A stretch of DNA of 54,517 bases from Thermovibrio sp. (GTDB lineage: Bacteria > Aquificota > Aquificia > Desulfurobacteriales > Desulfurobacteriaceae): the NCBI GenBank assembly GCA_015488335.1, contig WFNZ01000020.1:1-54517 (forward strand). Direction: 5' to 3'. Shown here piece by piece: positions 1 through 9,624 of this stretch. The notes under the pieces were generated by a model. That model had not been told where the DNA came from and did no database searches. It saw only the letters and a program-made list of their open reading frames with translations. Position numbers and translations under genes: made by a program. The stretch's first letter is position 1. Each line of letters begins with the position of its first letter.

Positions 1-862
1 ATCTTATTATTTCTGGACTATGGCTTGAAAAGATGACATAAACCCCATTTTCAGATAAAGTTTTAAGTATATCTATCAATTTAAATCTCAATGAAGGGTG
101 AAGATGAACTTCAGGTTCTTCAATGATAAGAAGTGAGTTTTGTGAGATGAAGTTTCTTTCTATTAGAAGCTGAAATAAACCGAAGAGTTTAATTCCTGAA
201 GCAACAAGATTTATGTGAAACTTGTATTTGCCTTTGCGAAAAATAAGTCCTTCTTTCTGGTCATATTCAAAACTTCCTCCTATTAGGTTCTTTATCATTT
301 CGTATATATTTTCAAGTTCTATTGTATCAGCGACTCCAACATTTTTTATATCGTGCAGTATATCCCAGTAAATGTCAGGGATTCCATAATTATTAGGATA
401 CATTGATCTGTAAAGAGAAATTCCTTTTTCTATATCTAAAATTATTGGTGTCGCTATAAAATTTGAGAATCTTATGGTTATATCTGGTAAAATTTCCTCA
501 TCCGAGTAGGTTATTTTTCTTTTAAATGTTGGTAAAATAGTGATTGAGCACTTCCTTTTTGAAGATATTACCTCTATAATAGCCCTTTTCTTCTCCGAGC
601 ACTTGTTAACTAAATTTCCTAAATTCTGCTGAAATATCCATCTGAATTTTTGCTCTACATTTTTTAATGATATGCCTCCAACTGTAAACTTACCATAAGT
701 AAGATTTTTATCTCCAACCTTATGATAAGCTGAGAAAATTCCATAAAGAGCCCGTAATATAAAGGATTTGCCAGTTTCGTTCTTTCCTGCAACAACCGTA
801 AAAGGTTTTATCTCAAGCTCAGCTTCCTTAATAGGGCCGAAGTTGGTGAACCTAAATTTCAT
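1..862 (-). CDS. AAA-family ATPase (RecF/OLD-like), 3' end outside window
   Basis: Reading leftward from the ATG at 862, the frame stays open to the window edge, giving the first ~287 residues. Walker A is GKNETGKS at residues 26-33. A later LLIIEEPEVHLHP stretch is a Walker B with the EEPE..LHP pattern of AAA_15/AAA_21 ATPases. VASGIKLFG is a likely signature motif and SSHSPEI the downstream H-loop. Members of this group act in DNA repair, phage defence (OLD, Septu, Gabija-like) or as stand-alone ATPases. The missing C-terminus (a TOPRIM or other effector) would decide which. The gene is visibly AT-rich and contains no GGAGCTCC octamer, unlike most of the window. It follows the methyltransferase gene by 73 nt on the same strand, so it may be the last visible gene of that operon. 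Confidence 0.85.
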   Translation of the reverse strand, partial: MKFRFTNFGPIKEAELEIKPFTVVAGKNETGKSFILRALYGIFSAYHKVGDKNLTYGKFTVGGISLKNVEQKFRWIFQQNLGNLVNKCSEKKRAIIEVISSKRKCSITILPTFKRKITYSDEEILPDITIRFSNFIATPIILDIEKGISLYRSMYPNNYGIPDIYWDILHDIKNVGVADTIELENIYEMIKNLIGGSFEYDQKEGLIFRKGKYKFHINLVASGIKLFGLFQLLIERNFISQNSLLIIEEPEVHLHPSLRFKLIDILKTLSENGVYVIFSSHSPEIIR

Positions 863-935: not shown

Positions 936-3900
936 CTATACGTTCCTTGCTTTTTTGAGGCGGTTTTGGACGAGTTCGGCAACTGCGTAGTAAACTTCTT
1001 TCCTTTCTTCTTCGGTTAGGCCGAGGGAGTCAAAAACTATGTCGTCAAGGGCTTTCCTGTCTGGGAGAGGATTCGGTTCCTGTTCTCTTATCGGTTTATC
1101 CGGGTCAAAGCCGAGCTCAGTGAAGATGGAGTAAATAGGTCTATATAAAATATCAAGTTTCTTTGTAATTCCTTTTACCAGAAAAGTGAATTTGTTTCTA
1201 ACATCTTCTACAGGCAATTCAATTATTGTTATAGCTCCTGTCATTTCTCGTGCCATAGTTTCTATAAATATTCTATCAAGTGTAGCGTTTAGAGAAACGA
1301 CAAAATCAAGGTCTGCAATCTGAGTGTTAGTTAACTCAATATAATAGTTTCTCTGGTCTGTAGGATAATTGTTGATATTCCAAAAGAAAGCGTATCTTTC
1401 GCCAATACTCTTCCACCATAAAAATTTCATGTTGTTTTTTTCGTTTAATTGATACCAAAATTCTCGGGTTTTACAAGTTGGCCTATTATGAAACCCCTGT
1501 TTTTCTCCCCATTTTATATAGTCAATTGCAAAGGTTCCCGAAAGTTCACTTCTGTTCTTGTTGCACATGAAAACTCTATACTTCAGGTCTTCTTCCCGAA
1601 CGATTATTGTTTTAAGTTCTCTGGGGCTTTTTATTACGGGCTTTAGGAACTCCTTTTCTACTAAAAAGAGTTTGTAGTCCCTTGCGTTCTTCCCCCATTT
1701 GCTGGGTTTTATAACTCTAAGGCCTGCTTTTTTTGTCTCTTCAATTGATTTAAAACCTCTAAGATTTTCTACTCTCTCAAGTTCTGTGTTGTCAATTCTG
1801 TCGGTTACGTCTTCAACGTAGAAGAACTCGTTGGCTCCGGTTGTAAAACCTCTTTTAACTTCAGCAATATCCCCAAGCCTTACGAGTTTCCCTTTTCCCT
1901 TTTTGAGGATTGTAAAGAAGATGTCGGGAGCTCTTAAAAACTTCCCTCCCCACTTGTTGGCCTCGTATTTGCCGTCTCTCGTTCCGTCTCTTAAAAGGTC
2001 TTTCTGTTTCACAGGGAAGACTCTAAAGTTTTCGGTGTTTATGACGTTCTCTGCAAGCTCTGTAAGGTCTTTGTCCTCAACCTTTGCCTCTGCCTTTTCT
2101 ATAAACCAGATAAGGTTTTTAAACTCATTGGCGTTTACAACCTGCTCAAAGGGGATTTTCCACATTACGAACTTTGCGGTGTTTTCAAGGTTTTCTCTCT
2201 CTTTTTTCCTGTCTGTTGGAGCAGATGTAAAGACAATTACGGTGTTAACGTCTGCCTCTTTGAAACTCCTCTTGCTCTGGTTGTCGTTTATTGAGTGAAT
2301 CTTTGTTCTCCTTAAGAGGAACTCCTGCAGTGATTTTCCAAAGCCGACGTCAAGCCATGAGTTTGAGGTTATAAAGGAGAGGGTTCCTTTATCGTTTAGT
2401 AGGCTCAGGGCTTTAAAGTAGAAGTAAACGTAGAGGTCTGCCTTGCCGTCGGGCTTGAACTCCTCTCCGTAGAGGTTTACAACCATTTTCTGAAGTTTCT
2501 CTTTGTATTCTTTTTTGAGCTTTTTCCACTCTGAATCTTTATAGTCTTCCTCGTTTTCCGTCGGCGGGGCTATCTTCTCCTGCCTTACGTAAGGCGGATT
2601 TCCTATAACGATGTCAAACCCCTTTTTGTCTTTATCGTAAAAGACCTCAACAAAGTCAATGTCGTATATAAAAGGCCTTTTTCCTTTGTTTAGGGCCTCT
2701 TTAACCTTTTTCCACCTTTTGAGCTCCTCTTCATACTCTTTAATTTTCCTCTTCTTCTCTTTCTCAAATAGGTCTTTTTCTCTTTTTGATTCTTTTCCAA
2801 ACAGGTCTTTATCGTAGTGGTAATTCTTTCCTTTTTCAGTAAGTATTTTCCTCTCAAGCTCTCTTATCTTTTCCTCTACTATCTCTCTGAACAGGTTGAG
2901 CTCCTCTTTTTCAATTTCATCTTTTTTAGGAGCTCCCTTTTCGTTCTTTGCATACTTCAGCTTCTTCTCTTTCAGTTGGGTTATCTTCCTCTTTATTCCC
3001 GGCGATAGTGGAACGGATGAGCGGAGCTCCCTCCTTTTGCTCCTTAAGATTGAGAAATCTATCCCTCCAAACTCCTCTACAAGGCTATCTCCCGGCCTTA
3101 CTTTGAATGAGAGGTTGGGCAAAAGAGGTTTTATGAGAACTTCCTGAGGTTTAAGGTCTGCTTCAACCAAGAGGAAGAGCCAGAGGCGGAGTTCTGCAAT
3201 CCTAACGGCCCACTCCATTACGTCAACGCCGTAAATGTTGTTTTCTATTATCTGTTTTCTCAGAGCGTAGCTGCTCTTCCTGACTTTCGGGTCAAAACGG
3301 TAGAGCTTCTCGTAGAGTTTATAGATGGCGTCTACCATTCCTACTAAAAAGGCTCCGCTACCGCAGGCAGGGTCAAGGACTTTTAGACTGTTGAGAGCTC
3401 TCTCTAAGACCTCAAAAGTTTCCCTGTTCTCAGGTGTAAAGTCCTCGTCAAAGATGAAACTGTAAACGGTCTCTTCGGGGAGCTCCGTGTTTTTAAGCAG
3501 ATAGTAGAGGAGAGATTGGGTTACCATAAACCTGATTTCAGGTTCTTTTGTATAAACGATACCTTTAAGAACTCCCTCTGCATCTATCTCCTTTTCAGGG
3601 TTATTCAGGGCGCTTGAGGAATCTATATGAACAAGCTTCTCATAAACTGTTCCTATGAATTCAGGGTTAACTGCAACGTCTCTGTCGTCTTCTAAATCCT
3701 CAACGATTGTAAAGTTGTAGCTGTTAAGAAATGGAATAACTCCCTCATTTTCTCTTCCGAAAGGGTCTTCTTTCAGGAAAAAGTCATCCGGTACTTCAAA
3801 CTCAAGCTCGTCAAGTTCGTTTTCCTCAAAGAGGCCACCGTTGAGGTAGGGAGCTTGAAGTAAAACTTCTCTTACTCTCTGTGGTAGGTAGCTGTACTTT

Positions 3901-4787
3901 GAGTTTATTTCCCCCTTTTTACCGCTAAATGCAGAGAAAAAGAGAGGTTTCAGCCACTCTGAATAAAAAGTTCCCTCTTTTTCTGGGTTTTCAGAAACGA
4001 AATCTTTATACTCCCTTACTAAGAAGTCAATCAAGGTTTCATCGCCGAGTGGTTTGAACCACTCTTTTTTCTTCTGGATAAAGTATACAAAAGTTAACCT
4101 GTTTAGGAGCTGATGGGCAGCCTCTTTTGATTTCCTCTCCGGCTTTTCAGTTTTACCCTTTATCTGTTCGTATATTTTTGCCCAGAGTTTCCTGAAGTGT
4201 TTTAGGTACTGGGAGAAAAACTCCTCATTAAGTTTTTCAACGCTGAAGATTTCAAGGAGCTCTTTGAACGTTGGATTTTTAGAGTTGTAGAGCCTGAAAA
4301 GTTGGTTAAGAACTGTTTTAGAGGCTTCTCCTTTTCCGAGCAGAAATGAAAATCGCTTTGGAGAGGAGAGGAGCTCCTTTAGGCCGTCGCTATCGTAGAT
4401 GTAGCTCTTTGCTACAAGTGACAGTTTCCAGACTTCAGATTCAGGAACGTAAAAGGCAACCAGCCCGGCATCTGAGCCGTATTCGTCTAAAACTCTTGCT
4501 ACAAAATCTCTCTGTGTTTTCCTCGCCCTTTCAAGGCTTGACTCTTTTTTGAGCTCAACTGTTATGAAAAGAATTCCGTTCTGGTCGCTGTCTCTGTAAA
4601 TTCCAAGAACTTCAGCACTTTCAATTATTTCTCTAAACCTTTCAGGGTATTCTTCTATAGAGATTGCAAAGTTTTTTGTAAAGTCTGCCGATTCAAAAAC
4701 AGTTTTTAAGAATGACTCAAAGTTTTCTTTGTCAAAAGAATTCTCTATTAGCTCTTTAATTCTCTCGTTAAAAATCTCTGTAGACAT
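936..4787 (-). CDS. Eco57I-family DNA adenine methyltransferase, probable type IIG-like restriction-modification protein
   Basis: A 1283-aa single polypeptide. The SAM motif DPACGSGAF lies near residue 470 and NIYGVDVMEWAVRIAELRL follows as motif II/III. The catalytic NPPY motif near residue 729 marks an N6-adenine methylase. YLNGGLFE upstream is typical of large Eco57I/type IIG-like enzymes. The C-terminal ~350 residues resemble a TaqI_C-type target-recognition domain. The N-terminus carries D66...E78-L-K80, which could be a PD-(D/E)XK nuclease motif, so the protein may both cut and methylate. The start overlaps the RelE-like toxin gene by 20 nt, implying translational coupling. No HsdS or HsdR subunit is present, so this is not a classical type I system. 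The methylase call is firm; the nuclease and recognition domains are inference. Confidence 0.88.
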   Translation of the reverse strand: MSTEIFNERIKELIENSFDKENFESFLKTVFESADFTKNFAISIEEYPERFREIIESAEVLGIYRDSDQNGILFITVELKKESSLERARKTQRDFVARVLDEYGSDAGLVAFYVPESEVWKLSLVAKSYIYDSDGLKELLSSPKRFSFLLGKGEASKTVLNQLFRLYNSKNPTFKELLEIFSVEKLNEEFFSQYLKHFRKLWAKIYEQIKGKTEKPERKSKEAAHQLLNRLTFVYFIQKKKEWFKPLGDETLIDFLVREYKDFVSENPEKEGTFYSEWLKPLFFSAFSGKKGEINSKYSYLPQRVREVLLQAPYLNGGLFEENELDELEFEVPDDFFLKEDPFGRENEGVIPFLNSYNFTIVEDLEDDRDVAVNPEFIGTVYEKLVHIDSSSALNNPEKEIDAEGVLKGIVYTKEPEIRFMVTQSLLYYLLKNTELPEETVYSFIFDEDFTPENRETFEVLERALNSLKVLDPACGSGAFLVGMVDAIYKLYEKLYRFDPKVRKSSYALRKQIIENNIYGVDVMEWAVRIAELRLWLFLLVEADLKPQEVLIKPLLPNLSFKVRPGDSLVEEFGGIDFSILRSKRRELRSSVPLSPGIKRKITQLKEKKLKYAKNEKGAPKKDEIEKEELNLFREIVEEKIRELERKILTEKGKNYHYDKDLFGKESKREKDLFEKEKKRKIKEYEEELKRWKKVKEALNKGKRPFIYDIDFVEVFYDKDKKGFDIVIGNPPYVRQEKIAPPTENEEDYKDSEWKKLKKEYKEKLQKMVVNLYGEEFKPDGKADLYVYFYFKALSLLNDKGTLSFITSNSWLDVGFGKSLQEFLLRRTKIHSINDNQSKRSFKEADVNTVIVFTSAPTDRKKERENLENTAKFVMWKIPFEQVVNANEFKNLIWFIEKAEAKVEDKDLTELAENVINTENFRVFPVKQKDLLRDGTRDGKYEANKWGGKFLRAPDIFFTILKKGKGKLVRLGDIAEVKRGFTTGANEFFYVEDVTDRIDNTELERVENLRGFKSIEETKKAGLRVIKPSKWGKNARDYKLFLVEKEFLKPVIKSPRELKTIIVREEDLKYRVFMCNKNRSELSGTFAIDYIKWGEKQGFHNRPTCKTREFWYQLNEKNNMKFLWWKSIGERYAFFWNINNYPTDQRNYYIELTNTQIADLDFVVSLNATLDRIFIETMAREMTGAITIIELPVEDVRNKFTFLVKGITKKLDILYRPIYSIFTELGFDPDKPIREQEPNPLPDRKALDDIVFDSLGLTEEERKEVYYAVAELVQNRLKKARNV

Positions 4788-5043
4788 TCTTTCTCTTCCC
4801 CACTCTCAGTATTAGAATTACAAGCTGTCTGTCATTAATTTCAAAGATGGCTCTTATCTTTCTGGCTATAATAAATCTATAAAACTTATCGCTTCCTTTA
4901 AGTTTTCTTACTTTCTTTGTTTTCTTCAAAAGCTCAAAGTTTTCTGAAAGATATTTTAACTTTTCGGCAATGAAAACCCTCTCATCAGGTGCAAATTTTT
5001 CTAAATCCTTCCTTGCAACTTCTGATAAGAGGAGTTTATACAT
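4768..5043 (-). CDS. RelE/ParE-family toxin
   Basis: A 91-aa protein with the RelE/ParE pattern: an N-terminal YKLLLSEVARKDLEKF helix region, then RKLKGSDKFYRF, then IRAIFEINDRQLVILILRVGKRKNVYR with the basic residues expected for a ribosome-dependent mRNA interferase or related fold. It overlaps the upstream antitoxin by 8 nt and the downstream methyltransferase start by 20 nt, so toxin and methylase translation are physically linked. In RelE families the toxin acts in the cytoplasm and is neutralised by the co-encoded antitoxin. Whether it is mRNA-cleaving (RelE) or gyrase-directed (ParE) cannot be told from sequence alone. Confidence 0.85.
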   Translation of the reverse strand: MYKLLLSEVARKDLEKFAPDERVFIAEKLKYLSENFELLKKTKKVRKLKGSDKFYRFIIARKIRAIFEINDRQLVILILRVGKRKNVYRDF

Positions 5044-5269
5044 CTATTCCAAGCTCCCTGAAGACCTCTTCAGCGTCATAGACTTTCATTTTCCCCTCCT
5101 CTACTTCTCGGCTTATCTTTTCTGCAACTTTCAGGTCTAAATAGTCAAAGTAGAAGTCAAGTGCTTTCTCTACAATTTCACTCTGGGAAATCCCAAGGAG
5201 CTTTGAAAGTGTGGAGAGCTCCTCTGCCAGCTCTCTGTCCATGCTTATGAGTTTTTTAGTTGTTGCCAT
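5036..5269 (-). CDS. Ribbon-helix-helix antitoxin of the RelE-like toxin
   Basis: A 77-aa protein. Residues 5-45 fit a ribbon-helix-helix DNA-binding domain (KKLISMDRELAEEL, then a helix with GISQSEIVEKALDFY). The C-terminal tail KVYDAEEVFRELGID resembles the toxin-binding tail of RelB/DinJ-type antitoxins. The start is preceded by a good Shine-Dalgarno (ACGGAGGA). It overlaps the toxin by 8 nt. An inverted repeat with an embedded -10 box lies 24-43 nt upstream (5293-5312), the usual place for antitoxin autorepression. The pair sits between helicase and methylase genes, suggesting it stabilises the defence operon. That role is inferred from position. Confidence 0.85.
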   Translation of the reverse strand: MATTKKLISMDRELAEELSTLSKLLGISQSEIVEKALDFYFDYLDLKVAEKISREVEEGKMKVYDAEEVFRELGIDV

Positions 5270-5292
5270 AAGTCCTCCGTCAATTCCTGTTT

Positions 5293-5312
5293 GATATATC
5301 TGATTATATATC
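5293..5312 (-). promoter_or_regulatory. Palindromic operator with -10 box for the toxin-antitoxin pair
   Basis: On the minus strand GATATAT-N6-ATATATC is a perfect 7-bp inverted repeat, and it contains TATAAT (5303-5308). It lies in the 69-nt gap between helicase and antitoxin genes, just upstream of the antitoxin Shine-Dalgarno. No strong -35 is visible at the standard spacing. The layout fits an internal promoter repressed by the ribbon-helix-helix antitoxin. Confidence 0.55.
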
Positions 5313-5338
5313 CTCTACTGCGGCTAAACAGTAATTTC

Positions 5339-8300
5339 TCATCCAAAATACTGGGATAGGATAACCTCTATGTGAGAACTTTCCTCAGCAGGCGCTTCCA
5401 TACTTTTAGAGTTTTCTAAGTCAAAATTCCCTAAAAACTCTTTTACGGCTTTAAGCTTGGCCTCTATAGTTTTCGCACTTTTAACATTTTTAGATAAAGT
5501 CTTGAGGACTTTCCTGGGGAAAGTTCCCTCGTTTATCCGTTCCATCAGGTTTACAACCGCTTCCCTTTCCTCTCTGTCCTTTATGGTGTTCTTTAAGGCT
5601 TTTAACTCCTTAAGTAGCGCTTTTTCATCCCTTGATAGGGTTTTTCGTGATGCCTCTTCGGCTTTCTGCCTCTGGAGAGCTCCCTCAAAGGCTCTCCTGT
5701 TCTTATAGTACAGCTCGTAGAACCTATCGACCGGAACTTTTATTCTTTTCTCGTTCCTATCGGTTTCAAGGAGCTCCACTGCACTTAAGAAGTCAATTTC
5801 TTTAGCAGGTTCATCCCCGTAGGAAATAAAGATTTTTTTAAGTTCGCCTTTTTTAAAGAGAGTTATGAGGAATTCTCTTTTAAACTCCCTTCCTGAGCGG
5901 GCTTTTTTTGGAAGTTTTTTGATTTTCTCAAAGAGCTCAGGTTCCTCTTTCTTTATTCTTCTCAGCTCCTCTACGTACTTGAGGATTGAGCCCTCCTCTT
6001 CCTCCTCTTTAGGGTTGTTTATCCTGTTAAAGAGACCGTGGGCGTCAACCTCTTCTTCTTCAGTTAGGTATTTTGCGTCCTCTCCAAGTGCCTGGTGAAA
6101 GGCCTGGAGCTTTGCAACTGCAGCTGCCTCAAGTCCTAACTCTCTTTCGGCTACTCCTACGGGGAAAAAGTTGTAGATGTGTATCTCCTTAAACTCTGTT
6201 CCTACTCTGTTAATCCTTCCGACCCTCTGTAGAACTCTCGTTGGATTCCAGGGGATGTCGTAGTTAACTATAACGTTGGCCCTGTGGAGGTTTATACCCT
6301 CTGCAAGGACGTCTGTTGTTATCAATACTCTTATATCGTCTTCCATAACAGGTGCGTTGGGGTCAAAGTTTGCAATGATTTTCTTCCTTACGGGAGCTCC
6401 CGATTTTGAAGAGTAAACCAAAACAGAGTTTCCAAAAACGTTGCGGAGCTCCTTTCCAAGGTATTCGGCAGTTTCAGAGGATTCAGTAAATATCAGAATC
6501 TTTTTGGCTTTAGATAGAACGGGGTCTTTTCCCGTTAGGAACTCCAAGAACCTGTTAAGCTTTGGGTCTTCTTTAACCTTTTCCCACTCCTCTTTAAGGA
6601 CTCTTATAGTTTCTGTATCCTCTTTAAGGTTTTTGTAGAAGTTCGGAGAAAGTTCTTCCCGTTTATACCTCTTTACCTTTCCACTCTCTACAAGCTCCAT
6701 CAGTTCATCAATTGAGTCCTCCTCAAGGAGCTCGTAAACGTCCACCTCTTTACTGACGTAAACCTCTCTCCTCTCCTCAAATATACTTAAGAACTTTTCG
6801 TGGGAGTCTAAGAACCTCTCAAGGCTTTTCCTGAACGCTTCAAAACTGCTCTCAAGCCTCTTTAAGAGGAGCGTTTTCATAAGGCCGGCAAGGTTTTTTT
6901 GTGATAGAAATTCTGGGTCGTTCTCCTTTAATTTCTCCTTTAGGTAGAAAGAGGGTGTATACCTTGCGTAAGAAAGGTTGCCAATTGCTTTTATTGTTCT
7001 GTCGTAGAGATTGTCTAACTTACTATCTAGCTTATAGTATACCCTTTTAGGAGACTTTACTTTGGGAAAAGAGACTCCTTGGGTTTTCAGGTCTTCTCCG
7101 TAGAACTTCTCAACCTCTCCTCTTGTTCTCCTCACCATTACGTATTTGAGTATTTTGTCCCTTATCTCTTTTCCACAATCCTTTAAAACTTCCCTGTACT
7201 TGTGTGGATTTTTCCTCCTGTCTACTTTTTTTATCCTGTTTTCAAGATTTTTGAAGAATTCCTCAAGGTTTGTAACGCCGGGTATTGTTGATCTGTACCT
7301 GTTCTGAAAGAGGAGAAGCTGGTTCTTTATGTCTGAGGGCCTGTTGTTGTAGGGAGTGGCCGTTATCAGGATTACTTTCTTACCCTGACATATTGAGTGG
7401 AGATTAATGTAAGCTTTTGTCCAATCGTTCCTGAACCTGTGGGCTTCGTCTACAACAACAACCGGATAGTTTTTAAACTCTGAAAGCTCGCTTTTCTCTT
7501 TCCTGCTGAGGATTCCTGATGAGACGACTTTTGCAGGAACTCTGAACTCTCTCAGGATATCCTCCCAGTAGTCTGTAAGGTGGGGAGGAGCAAAGACTAA
7601 AACCTTTTTCCTGAGTTTTGAGCAGAGCATTGCAGCAATAAAGGTCTTTCCGAGTCCAACAACGTCTGAAAGGAAAACGCCGTTATGTCTTCTCAGTTTC
7701 GATTCAGCGTCTGCAACGGCTTCAAGCTGATACTTCAGTTTTTTAAATCCTGGAGGCAGAAAGATGAAATCCTCTTCTTTATCGTAATCAATCTGGTCGG
7801 AGAGGAACTCGTAGAGAAACTTTAAGTAGAGCTCGTAAGGAGAAAGAGTATCGTTAAGCCACGTTCTCTCCTTAACAGTTTTAACAACGTCTTCCGATAT
7901 CTCTACAGACTCATTCCAGAGGGCTTCAAACCTTTCAATAGCAAACTCAACGTCGGCTCTGTTTTTAAGCTCTACGTTGAACTCTAAATTTTCCTTAAGT
8001 CCTGAAATTGTAAAGTTGGAGGAGCCTGTTATCACCCTTCCAACGTCTATTCCGCTCTTGCTCCTAAAGATGTAGAGCTTTGCGTGGAGAGGAGAGTGGG
8101 GGTAGTACTTAATCTCAACTTTGCCGCTCTGAACCCACTCTAAAAACTTCCTGATTGCTCTTTCTCTTTCTTCAGAGTCTTCGTAGCTTCCGCTGGAGAG
8201 CTCCCTTACTACTTCCTCTAAATACTCCTCTTTAGCCTCTTTGAGGTTTTTGGCTCTGTCTAAGAGCTCGTAAACTCTCCTCTCAACTTCCATTCCAACG

Positions 8301-8482
8301 ATAATTCTTATCTTATCTACCTTTTCAAGCTCTTCGTAGAGTTGGTATATACCGGAAAGGTAGAAGTAACCGACTATTATGTTTAACTCTTTTGTATCCC
8401 TGAAGAGGGTTTTGAAGCGGTCTATCAGCTTTCTGCCTTTCTCGTTTGTGAAAAAGGTCAGGTCGTTAACTGCTGCAGTCAA
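5339..8482 (-). CDS. PLD-family nuclease fused to SNF2-type helicase (defence-like)
   Basis: A 1047-aa protein. Residues ~1-200 are a phospholipase-D-like nuclease domain with one HKD-type motif: H133-A-K135 followed by GSSN at 153-156. Residues ~245-470 are the first SNF2/SF2 helicase lobe, with VGLGKT (Walker A, ~276-281) and DEAH at 345-348. The second lobe ends in QRVGRINRVG (motif VI). The C-terminal ~250 residues are charged and helical and were not recognised. Single-HKD nucleases such as BfiI dimerise to cut DNA. Together with the methylase this resembles ATP-dependent restriction systems that pair a PLD nuclease with an SF2 motor (for example the R.CglI/NgoAVII type), but here both are in one chain. 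It begins 14 nt after ribD, so it may be read partly from the ribD operon. Confidence 0.88.
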   Translation of the reverse strand: MTAAVNDLTFFTNEKGRKLIDRFKTLFRDTKELNIIVGYFYLSGIYQLYEELEKVDKIRIIVGMEVERRVYELLDRAKNLKEAKEEYLEEVVRELSSGSYEDSEERERAIRKFLEWVQSGKVEIKYYPHSPLHAKLYIFRSKSGIDVGRVITGSSNFTISGLKENLEFNVELKNRADVEFAIERFEALWNESVEISEDVVKTVKERTWLNDTLSPYELYLKFLYEFLSDQIDYDKEEDFIFLPPGFKKLKYQLEAVADAESKLRRHNGVFLSDVVGLGKTFIAAMLCSKLRKKVLVFAPPHLTDYWEDILREFRVPAKVVSSGILSRKEKSELSEFKNYPVVVVDEAHRFRNDWTKAYINLHSICQGKKVILITATPYNNRPSDIKNQLLLFQNRYRSTIPGVTNLEEFFKNLENRIKKVDRRKNPHKYREVLKDCGKEIRDKILKYVMVRRTRGEVEKFYGEDLKTQGVSFPKVKSPKRVYYKLDSKLDNLYDRTIKAIGNLSYARYTPSFYLKEKLKENDPEFLSQKNLAGLMKTLLLKRLESSFEAFRKSLERFLDSHEKFLSIFEERREVYVSKEVDVYELLEEDSIDELMELVESGKVKRYKREELSPNFYKNLKEDTETIRVLKEEWEKVKEDPKLNRFLEFLTGKDPVLSKAKKILIFTESSETAEYLGKELRNVFGNSVLVYSSKSGAPVRKKIIANFDPNAPVMEDDIRVLITTDVLAEGINLHRANVIVNYDIPWNPTRVLQRVGRINRVGTEFKEIHIYNFFPVGVAERELGLEAAAVAKLQAFHQALGEDAKYLTEEEEVDAHGLFNRINNPKEEEEEGSILKYVEELRRIKKEEPELFEKIKKLPKKARSGREFKREFLITLFKKGELKKIFISYGDEPAKEIDFLSAVELLETDRNEKRIKVPVDRFYELYYKNRRAFEGALQRQKAEEASRKTLSRDEKALLKELKALKNTIKDREEREAVVNLMERINEGTFPRKVLKTLSKNVKSAKTIEAKLKAVKEFLGNFDLENSKSMEAPAEESSHIEVILSQYFG

Positions 8483-8496
8483 ACTGCCTCCCTGTT

Positions 8497-9624
8497 TTAA
8501 ATCTTTCTTCCTATCTCGAGGAGCTCCCTTGAGTGAAGGGATAGGTAAGTATCTTCTCTAAATTTAAGTTCTCTGAGAGTTTCAAGTTTAAACGCTTTAT
8601 CTATTGAACCGAAAGAACCTCTGAAAGCAGAAATTCCGTCCTCTCCAAGGATTTTTGGAGCGTAGAAGAGTGTCAGTTTGTCAACAAGGTTCTCAGAAAG
8701 AAGAGACCAGGAGAGGAGAGCTCCCCCTTCGCAGAGAACGGAGTAGATGCCAAACTCCTCTTTTAAGGCGGTTAGAGCCTCTTTCAGATCTAACTTTCCG
8801 CCAAGGTCAAAGACGGGTAGGAGCTTCACCCCAAGGTCTTTCAGGATTCCGGCCTTGTAGGAAAAGAGTGATTCCTGAGCTGTGATAACTATCAGCTCTT
8901 TTGCTCGCTCTTTCACAAGGTAGCAGTTTGTCGGGATTTTCAGTTGTCTGTCAACAACCACTGCAAAGGGTTGCTTCTCAACGGGAAATTCTCTAACGGT
9001 TAGCTTAGGGTTGTCCTTTAAGACTGTTCCTATTCCAACCATTACGGCGTTGTGCCAGCTCCTCAGTTTCTGGACGAACCTCCTTGAGGCCTCTCCCGTT
9101 ATCCACTTTGAGTTTCCATGCCTGTCTGCAATTTTCCCGTCTAAAGTGAGGGCAAGTTTTAAGTTCAGAAAAGCTCTCTTTTTCAGCGTATTTACAACGA
9201 AATCCTCTATCAGCTCAAAACACCTCTTCTTTAAAACTCCGGTTTTTACTTTTATTCCGGCAGACCTTAACCTCTCAACTCCTCCGGCTGCAACTGGGTT
9301 TGGATCTCTTACACCGATTACGACCTCTTTTATTCCGGCCTTTATTATTTTCTCTGTGCAGGGTGGGGTTCTCCCGTAGTGGTTGCAGGGCTCTAAGGTT
9401 ACGTAGAGGGTTGCTCCCTTTGCCTTTTCTCCTGCCTTTGTGAGTGCAACGGCCTCTGCGTGGGGAAGTCCCGCCCTTTCGTGGTAGCCTGTAGCGATAA
9501 CTTTTCCGTTTTTTACTACTACTGCTCCAACTGCAGGGTTTGGAAGTGTTTTTCCCTTTGATTTGTAGGCTTCCCTTATTGCAAGGTTCATAAACCGGAT
9601 GTCTTCAAGGGTAATCCTTTCCAT
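8497..9624 (-). CDS. ribD: Bifunctional riboflavin biosynthesis deaminase/reductase RibD
   Basis: A 375-aa protein that deaminates and then reduces the pyrimidine intermediate derived from GTP in riboflavin synthesis. The N-terminal cytidine-deaminase-like domain has the zinc motif H55-A-E57 and PC80...PPC89. It starts with the typical PNPAVGAVVV. The C-terminal reductase domain begins near residue 150 with LALTLDGKIADRHG and shows VGIGTVLKDNP and CEGG. Length and order match the family. The start codon overlaps by 1 nt the stop of a 30-aa membrane peptide gene, so it is translationally coupled to the trpS operon. Confidence 0.95.
   Translation of the reverse strand: MERITLEDIRFMNLAIREAYKSKGKTLPNPAVGAVVVKNGKVIATGYHERAGLPHAEAVALTKAGEKAKGATLYVTLEPCNHYGRTPPCTEKIIKAGIKEVVIGVRDPNPVAAGGVERLRSAGIKVKTGVLKKRCFELIEDFVVNTLKKRAFLNLKLALTLDGKIADRHGNSKWITGEASRRFVQKLRSWHNAVMVGIGTVLKDNPKLTVREFPVEKQPFAVVVDRQLKIPTNCYLVKERAKELIVITAQESLFSYKAGILKDLGVKLLPVFDLGGKLDLKEALTALKEEFGIYSVLCEGGALLSWSLLSENLVDKLTLFYAPKILGEDGISAFRGSFGSIDKAFKLETLRELKFREDTYLSLHSRELLEIGRKI

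Follow-up and report, generated by a model that had tools for sequence, protein, structure and literature searches.

What does a phospholipase D (PLD) nuclease fused to a SNF2-type motor do when its gene is followed, on the same strand, by a toxin-antitoxin (TA) pair, a large DNA methylase and an AAA ATPase, and do these genes belong together? The question is raised by an operon on contig WFNZ01000020.1 of a Thermovibrio sp. draft genome of 1.65 Mb (assembly GCA_015488335.1). The window analysed here, 54,517 nucleotides (nt) long, is that entire contig, G000:C20 in our numbering, in which G, C and L precede the numbers of genomes, contigs and loci. A preliminary description of the sequence had called the operon defence-like, without recognising its exact gene set as a named system. 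We find that its core is the helicase-methylase pair. This pair probably constitutes a two-protein, ATP-dependent restriction-modification (RM) system, resembling a split Type ISP or a half-Type I enzyme with a PLD nuclease, into which a mobile, self-regulated TA pair has been inserted with coupling to the methylase; the ATPase and a 163-residue protein would be accessories.

We began from the pairing of the two core genes across genomes. A single-sequence scan of genome contigs with the helicase returned no match; a profile search worked and retrieved at least 579 helicase relatives from the GTDB genomes, the best 80 of which span many bacterial phyla and several archaea. Relatives occur in 37 of the 136 genomes of the phylum. 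When the flanks of 120 helicase loci were annotated, the methylase gene came next, on the same strand and within 3.5 kb, in 103, with a gap of no more than 60 nt in 64, and tblastn detected downstream methylase sequence at three more loci (L135, L141 and L150). Most of the remaining loci end at a contig edge. Of the 108 loci that allow a test, 106 have the two genes adjoining on one strand, and the two exceptions, L033 and L051, are broken helicases without a methylase. These counts are not fully independent because they include near-duplicate loci (L034/L035 and L060-L062). The possibility, raised in the preliminary description, that helicase and methylase are never found together elsewhere is nevertheless contradicted. 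At every locus examined they are two separate genes. PLD-SNF2 helicases of a second clade, more distantly related (33-38%), occur in the same phylum and are likewise paired with a methylase (L032, L067, L070 and others); genomes such as G039, G100 and G102 carry one helicase of each clade.

In one genome, G120, the pair is no longer whole. Its pieces lie on two contigs (L055 on C53 and L050 on C52), which we infer to join; the helicase frame is interrupted, the ParE toxin gene is gone and the methylase frame is open. G120 may represent an RM system in decay, or the interruption may reflect sequencing errors in the draft. A broken helicase with an open methylase fits RM decay, in which a cell that lost its methylase first would die.

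The helicase matches the Pfam families PLDc_2 (4.7e-13) and Helicase_C (1.6e-20), as well as RE_NgoFVII, ResIII and SNF2-rel_dom. In 26 relatives, with identity down to about 31%, residues H133, K135, N156 and E171 are invariant, as are the motor motifs DVVGLGK (273-279, Walker A), DE-H (345-348) and QRVGR (752-756). With its AlphaFold2 model (pLDDT 82.7), Foldseek found RapA as the best match, followed by SauUSI, the nearest solved nuclease-bearing fold. The nearest PADLOC model was C3a139 'HKD+Snf2' at 186 bits, and DrmD models matched more weakly, at 137 bits.

Of 65 relatives, 61-65 retain the methylase motifs D472PACGSG and N730PPY. Its best PADLOC model was REase_MTase_IIG (224 bits), with DrmMI and PglX matching more weakly (97 and 60 bits). 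The preliminary description had pointed to a possible PD-(D/E)XK nuclease motif in this protein. The letters are indeed present in the window copy (E78-x-K80 in VELKKE, plus D66), but position 78 is E or D in only 10 of the 65 relatives, and E/D78 occurs together with K80 in only 6. We therefore rejected a catalytic PD-(D/E)XK site in the methylase N-terminus, even though the strand and helix order of its AlphaFold2 model (pLDDT 82) is compatible with a degenerate restriction endonuclease (REase) core. Since that site is not conserved, the PLD domain is the only credible conserved nuclease of the system.

Another part of the methylase appears to set sequence specificity. Close methylases are mostly 50-94% identical to each other, residues ~1100-1220 excepted. 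This block is of one type in the window and in L056, which belongs to another genus, of a second type in L053 and L050, and of a third in L052; the blocks on either side are 84-96% identical. Such exchange between conserved flanks is as expected of a predicted target-recognition domain (TRD) swapped between orthologues, and argues that the methylase determines specificity. The methylase of L054 is chimeric in a different way: its first ~150 residues are like those in the window and the remainder is ~34% identical, and the L054 TA pair is 80% identical to that of the window.

All genes of the operon are present on the minus strand where they had first been placed, and both coordinates and Pfam matches bear out a defence-type operon with a PLD-SNF2 helicase, a ribbon-helix-helix (RHH)/RelE-like pair, an Eco57I-like methylase and an AAA ATPase. 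The domain matches lie well outside what chance would give. The features are as follows.

8497-9624, minus strand: ribD, the upstream neighbour, which the operon directly follows.
5339-8482, minus strand: PLD (HKD) nuclease fused to a SNF2/RapA-like superfamily 2 (SF2) motor; 1047 amino acids (aa), TTG start 14 nt past the ribD stop.
5295-5312, minus strand: direct repeat GATATA-N6-GATATA in the helicase-RHH gap, the predicted RHH operator.
5036-5269, minus strand: RHH (RelB/CopG-like) antitoxin; 77 aa, Pfam RHH_3 3.5e-9, NCBIfam RelB-like 2.9e-10 (below cut-off).
4768-5043, minus strand: ParE/RelE-family toxin; 91 aa, Pfam ParE_toxin 4.7e-6 (above cut-off).
4768-4787, minus strand: toxin/methylase overlap of 20 nt, with the methylase start codon within the 3' end of the toxin gene.
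936-4787, minus strand: Eco57I/gamma-class N6-adenine methyltransferase with a C-terminal recognition domain; 1283 aa, Pfam Eco57I 1.2e-32.
4338-4787, minus strand: residues 1-150 of the methylase, an N-terminal domain with a REase-like core in which no catalytic motif is conserved.
1122-1490, minus strand: exchanged block of the methylase (aa ~1100-1222), the predicted TRD.
2-862, minus strand: AAA_15/AAA_21 ATPase, cut by the contig end; Pfam AAA_15 6.7e-21, PADLOC HEC-02A 133 bits.
G000:C55:10088-10291, minus strand: probable end of the ATPase, by homology to L050 of G120.
G000:C55:9616-10107, minus strand: 163-aa open reading frame (ORF) after the ATPase, without any family match.

The genes between helicase and methylase have the arrangement of a type II TA pair: the antitoxin gene directly precedes the toxin gene and overlaps it by 8 nt, a repeat lies upstream, and both products have the corresponding Pfam matches. 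Whether this TA pair is a conserved part of the system or a variable insert had been proposed as a check, and the answer is clear. Within the family the junction holds RHH-ParE in the window, L053, L054 and L152, RHH alone in L050, RHH-PIN in L004 and no insert in L056; in L052, RHH is followed by only the C-terminal ~50 residues of a PIN toxin, whose N-terminal half is lost. Copies of the ParE toxin 66-81% identical to that of the window occur in 11 other genomes of the phylum, and members of the RHH-ParE family stand free at unrelated sites (L151, L153, L156 and L157, for example). One copy, with a triple GATATA repeat, lies within a Type I restriction locus of another genome of the phylum, flanked by hsdS and hsdM (L159:2790-8468, minus strand, G082:C2). 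These sequence comparisons identify the RHH-ParE pair as a variable and mobile insertion between the helicase and methylase genes, and we rejected the TA pair as a conserved part of the system because the junction varies and close homologues stand alone. An apparent tandem of PIN and ParE in G121 was also dropped, as the contig of L152 (C119) opens with a helicase C-terminus of its own; G121 more likely holds two helicase loci, with RHH-PIN (L004, C110) and RHH-ParE (L152, C119) at their junctions.

The insert appears to travel with its own control element. A direct repeat of the form (GATATA-N6)2-3, with a 12-bp period, lies upstream of RHH in junctional and free copies alike, so the TA module appears to carry its own predicted operator, to which the RHH protein would bind. 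The repeat is exact in most copies; in L053 the aligned site contains a single mismatch. GATATA-N6-GATATA has 2 exact matches in the 1.65-Mb genome, as against 0 for a reversed-pattern control and an expectation of 0.00 in shuffles of the window, and nearly all matches in the fetched loci fall just upstream of RHH-ParE copies. The second match in the genome is at window positions 347-364 (minus strand), inside the coding sequence of the operon's AAA ATPase. At its other end the insert runs into the methylase gene. The 20-nt overlap given in the preliminary description is exact, and it recurs in L053, L054 and L152. Because the methylase start codon lies within the last codons of the toxin gene, we propose that methylase translation is probably coupled to that of the toxin.

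How might such an operon work? The methylase would use its C-terminal domain to read an asymmetric target sequence, and would add N6-methyladenine (m6A). At an unmodified site it would recruit or license the PLD-SNF2 protein, which would then translocate on DNA and cut it with the PLD domain, acting probably in dimeric form or upon collision. Type ISP enzymes have the order nuclease-motor-methylase-TRD (PMC3874165), and SauUSI is a PLD-ATPase protein that translocates on DNA and shreds it between target sites (PMC7913695). From this Type ISP-like architecture and the SauUSI precedent, m6A marking and ATP-driven translocation with cutting of unmarked DNA are to be expected. The RHH-ParE insertion would have brought a promoter and operator and captured the methylase start codon, thereby coupling expression of the methylase to that of the TA pair. 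The likeliest effect of the putative toxin and antitoxin would be stabilisation of the locus by addiction, with the methylase supply tied to an autoregulated promoter. Understood in this way, the pair would serve as an uncomplicated two-protein model for ATP-dependent restriction by a PLD nuclease.

Several points weigh against this scheme. A PDB structure search with the methylase N-terminal model gave no significant match; the only one that looked related, 4ic1 (SSO0001, a Cas4-family protein), was weak, at E 0.05. The TA pair is not essential, as loss of the toxin leaves the pair or its methylase in place (L052, L050). DNA cleavage by the PLD domain is assumed from homology, and a relative, PbeABCD, is reported to act without DNA degradation (PMC10853773).

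The architecture itself separates the pair from each of the systems that it resembles. It shares with the Type ISP enzymes LlaGI and LlaBIII a nuclease, an SF2 motor, a gamma-methyltransferase and a C-terminal TRD, and an asymmetric half-site logic would be expected of both. Type ISP enzymes are, however, single polypeptides with an Mrr/PD-(D/E)XK nuclease, whereas here there are two proteins, the nuclease is PLD, the motor is SNF2/RapA-like and the methylase has an additional REase-like N-terminal domain. The Type IV enzyme SauUSI similarly combines a PLD nuclease, at its N-terminus, with an SF2 ATPase in one protein, but it lacks a methylase partner and uses an SRA-type TRD of its own to cut modified DNA. 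The preliminary description had seen parts in common with CglI/NgoAVII and with DISARM. Like CglI/NgoAVII, the pair divides methylase and ATP-dependent restriction module between separate proteins, and it has the RE_NgoFVII (PLD) match; those systems comprise three genes and encode the nuclease apart from the DEAD ATPase (PMC4267653), whereas nuclease and motor are fused here and the methylase carries the recognition domain. DISARM class 1 and ARMADA also have a SNF2/RapA-like helicase adjoining a PglX-like methylase, but both require a YprA-type helicase (PMC12458937), and the operon genes include neither a YprA/DrmA helicase nor a DUF1998 gene (DrmB), with PLD being fused to the motor. Membership in CglI/NgoAVII or in DISARM is therefore not upheld.

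Could the pair nonetheless be a reduced DISARM or BREX-related system from which other genes were lost? The weaker matches of the helicase to DrmD and of the methylase to DrmMI/PglX point that way, as does BR Type-2, which likewise combines an HKD nuclease fused to a Swi2/Snf2 helicase with an N6-methylase (PMC12839542). Yet BR Type-2 also has a DUF499 ATPase and DUF3780. No DUF499 was found in G000 or in any genome of its family, and DUF3780 is absent from the Pfam matches of the operon genes, no genome-wide search having been made for it. The operon contains no DrmA, DrmB, PglZ or BrxC-type gene, its proteins miss the NCBIfam cut-offs for DrmD, DpdE and PglX by a wide margin, and the two-gene form is widespread rather than a local loss. 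We consider this origin highly improbable. Still harder to credit is a self-contained Type IIG methylase with its own nuclease, next to which the helicase would be an unrelated defence gene. REase_MTase_IIG is the best PADLOC model and the window copy does have D66 and E78-x-K80, but a conserved nuclease fused to the methylase N-terminus, as in Type IIG, is not found across the relatives, and the helicase neighbour is near-invariant. Missing genes, the fused architecture and the unconserved motif thus led us to reject a DISARM remnant, BR Type-2, CglI/NgoAVII and a Type IIG enzyme with an unrelated helicase. The PADLOC check yielded no curated system that fits, C3a139 and REase_MTase_IIG being the nearest, and the exact pair is unnamed in the curated system libraries and largely open-access literature searched, though it may be listed elsewhere, such as in REBASE. 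The core pair is widespread among both bacteria and archaea, with its halves filed under different names.

What the toxin contributes is a separate matter, on which we prefer addiction with expression coupling to a guard resembling PrrC or to a mere passenger. Accessory genes between RM genes have precedents in the toxin PrrC, within the Type IC locus EcoprrI (PMC12707154), and in the rlo/mlo ORFs that intervene in hsd loci of C. jejuni (PMC5183652); here, by contrast, a classical type II TA pair has entered a PLD-SNF2/methylase system of two genes. A guard would sense that the RM complex had been inactivated, whether a phage anti-restriction protein or methylase loss was the cause, and would arrest the cell. 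Unrelated toxin-like genes do recur at the junction. Besides ParE and the PIN toxin of RHH-PIN, the matches listed include HigBA (L049), a UPF0175-DUF3368 PIN pair (L044), Fic (L059, L074), RhuM with or without Fic (L089, L108), TumE (L140) and DUF2442 (L137), together with BRO-N (L075, L112, L115) and Schlafen/HATPase_c_4 genes (seven loci); a copy of the same TA family also sits in the Type I locus L159. Among these same matches, toxin-type genes occupy 11 of 103 junctions and 2 of 103 immediate upstream positions (Fisher p=0.019, with loci partly related), an enrichment that is suggestive only, the upstream counts making the test a soft one. Close homologues of the TA pair stand alone, and 64 of the 103 pairs, with gaps of at most 60 nt, have no insert. 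Moreover, the PIN toxin has decayed in L052 and ParE is missing in L050 while both retain the methylase, which argues against an obligatory guard, and we find a guard unlikely. It is similarly doubtful that the junction serves generally as a docking point for interchangeable growth-arrest modules which protect the system from anti-restriction, expression of the methylase running through the toxin operator and reading frame. The earlier suggestion that the TA pair punishes methylase loss is still conceivable, but it is weakened by the same two loci.

Hitch-hiking, in which TA pairs land and decay at a tolerated insertion point of a defence-island operon with no effect on RM, would account for the diversity of inserts, the remnants in L052 and L050, the absence of an insert in most pairs and the mobility of the TA family. 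Immediate upstream neighbours, however, are mostly housekeeping genes (among the matches listed, with five helix-turn-helix regulators and two PIN genes), and L053, L054 and L152 have all retained the overlap of 20 nt even though the body of the L054 methylase is only ~34% identical to that of the window. We regard hitch-hiking as a minor possibility and retain addiction with expression coupling as the preferred role. Relatives without an insert and with intact, decayed or different toxins all exist, and with them the question of whether toxins in RM operons are guards, addiction modules or passengers becomes testable.

The exact gene set does not hold as one dedicated system. The TA pair on the one hand, and the ATPase with the 163-aa protein on the other, are separable accessories, since each has close homologues at sites away from the helicase-methylase pair, and there are relatives in which the toxin has been lost or has decayed. 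The ATPase and 163-aa genes are a rare separate accessory. Immediate downstream neighbours at other loci include AAA_15/OLD-like ATPases, ApeA-HEPN and SIR2 genes, which fits the ATPase of the window. With C20 and C55 joined on the strength of homology, the operon would comprise six genes between housekeeping genes, a convergent purB-like gene closing the C55 side beyond the 163-aa ORF. In G120 the methylase and AAA_15 genes are separated by an OLD/GajA-like AAA-TOPRIM gene (L050:4512-6002, plus strand), which the window lacks at that position. Just upstream of the purB-like gene on G000:C55, a nucleotidyltransferase (99 aa) and a HepT/substrate-binding-like protein (153 aa) are encoded side by side (L165:7525-8282, plus strand), and probably form a separate MNT-HEPN toxin-antitoxin module.

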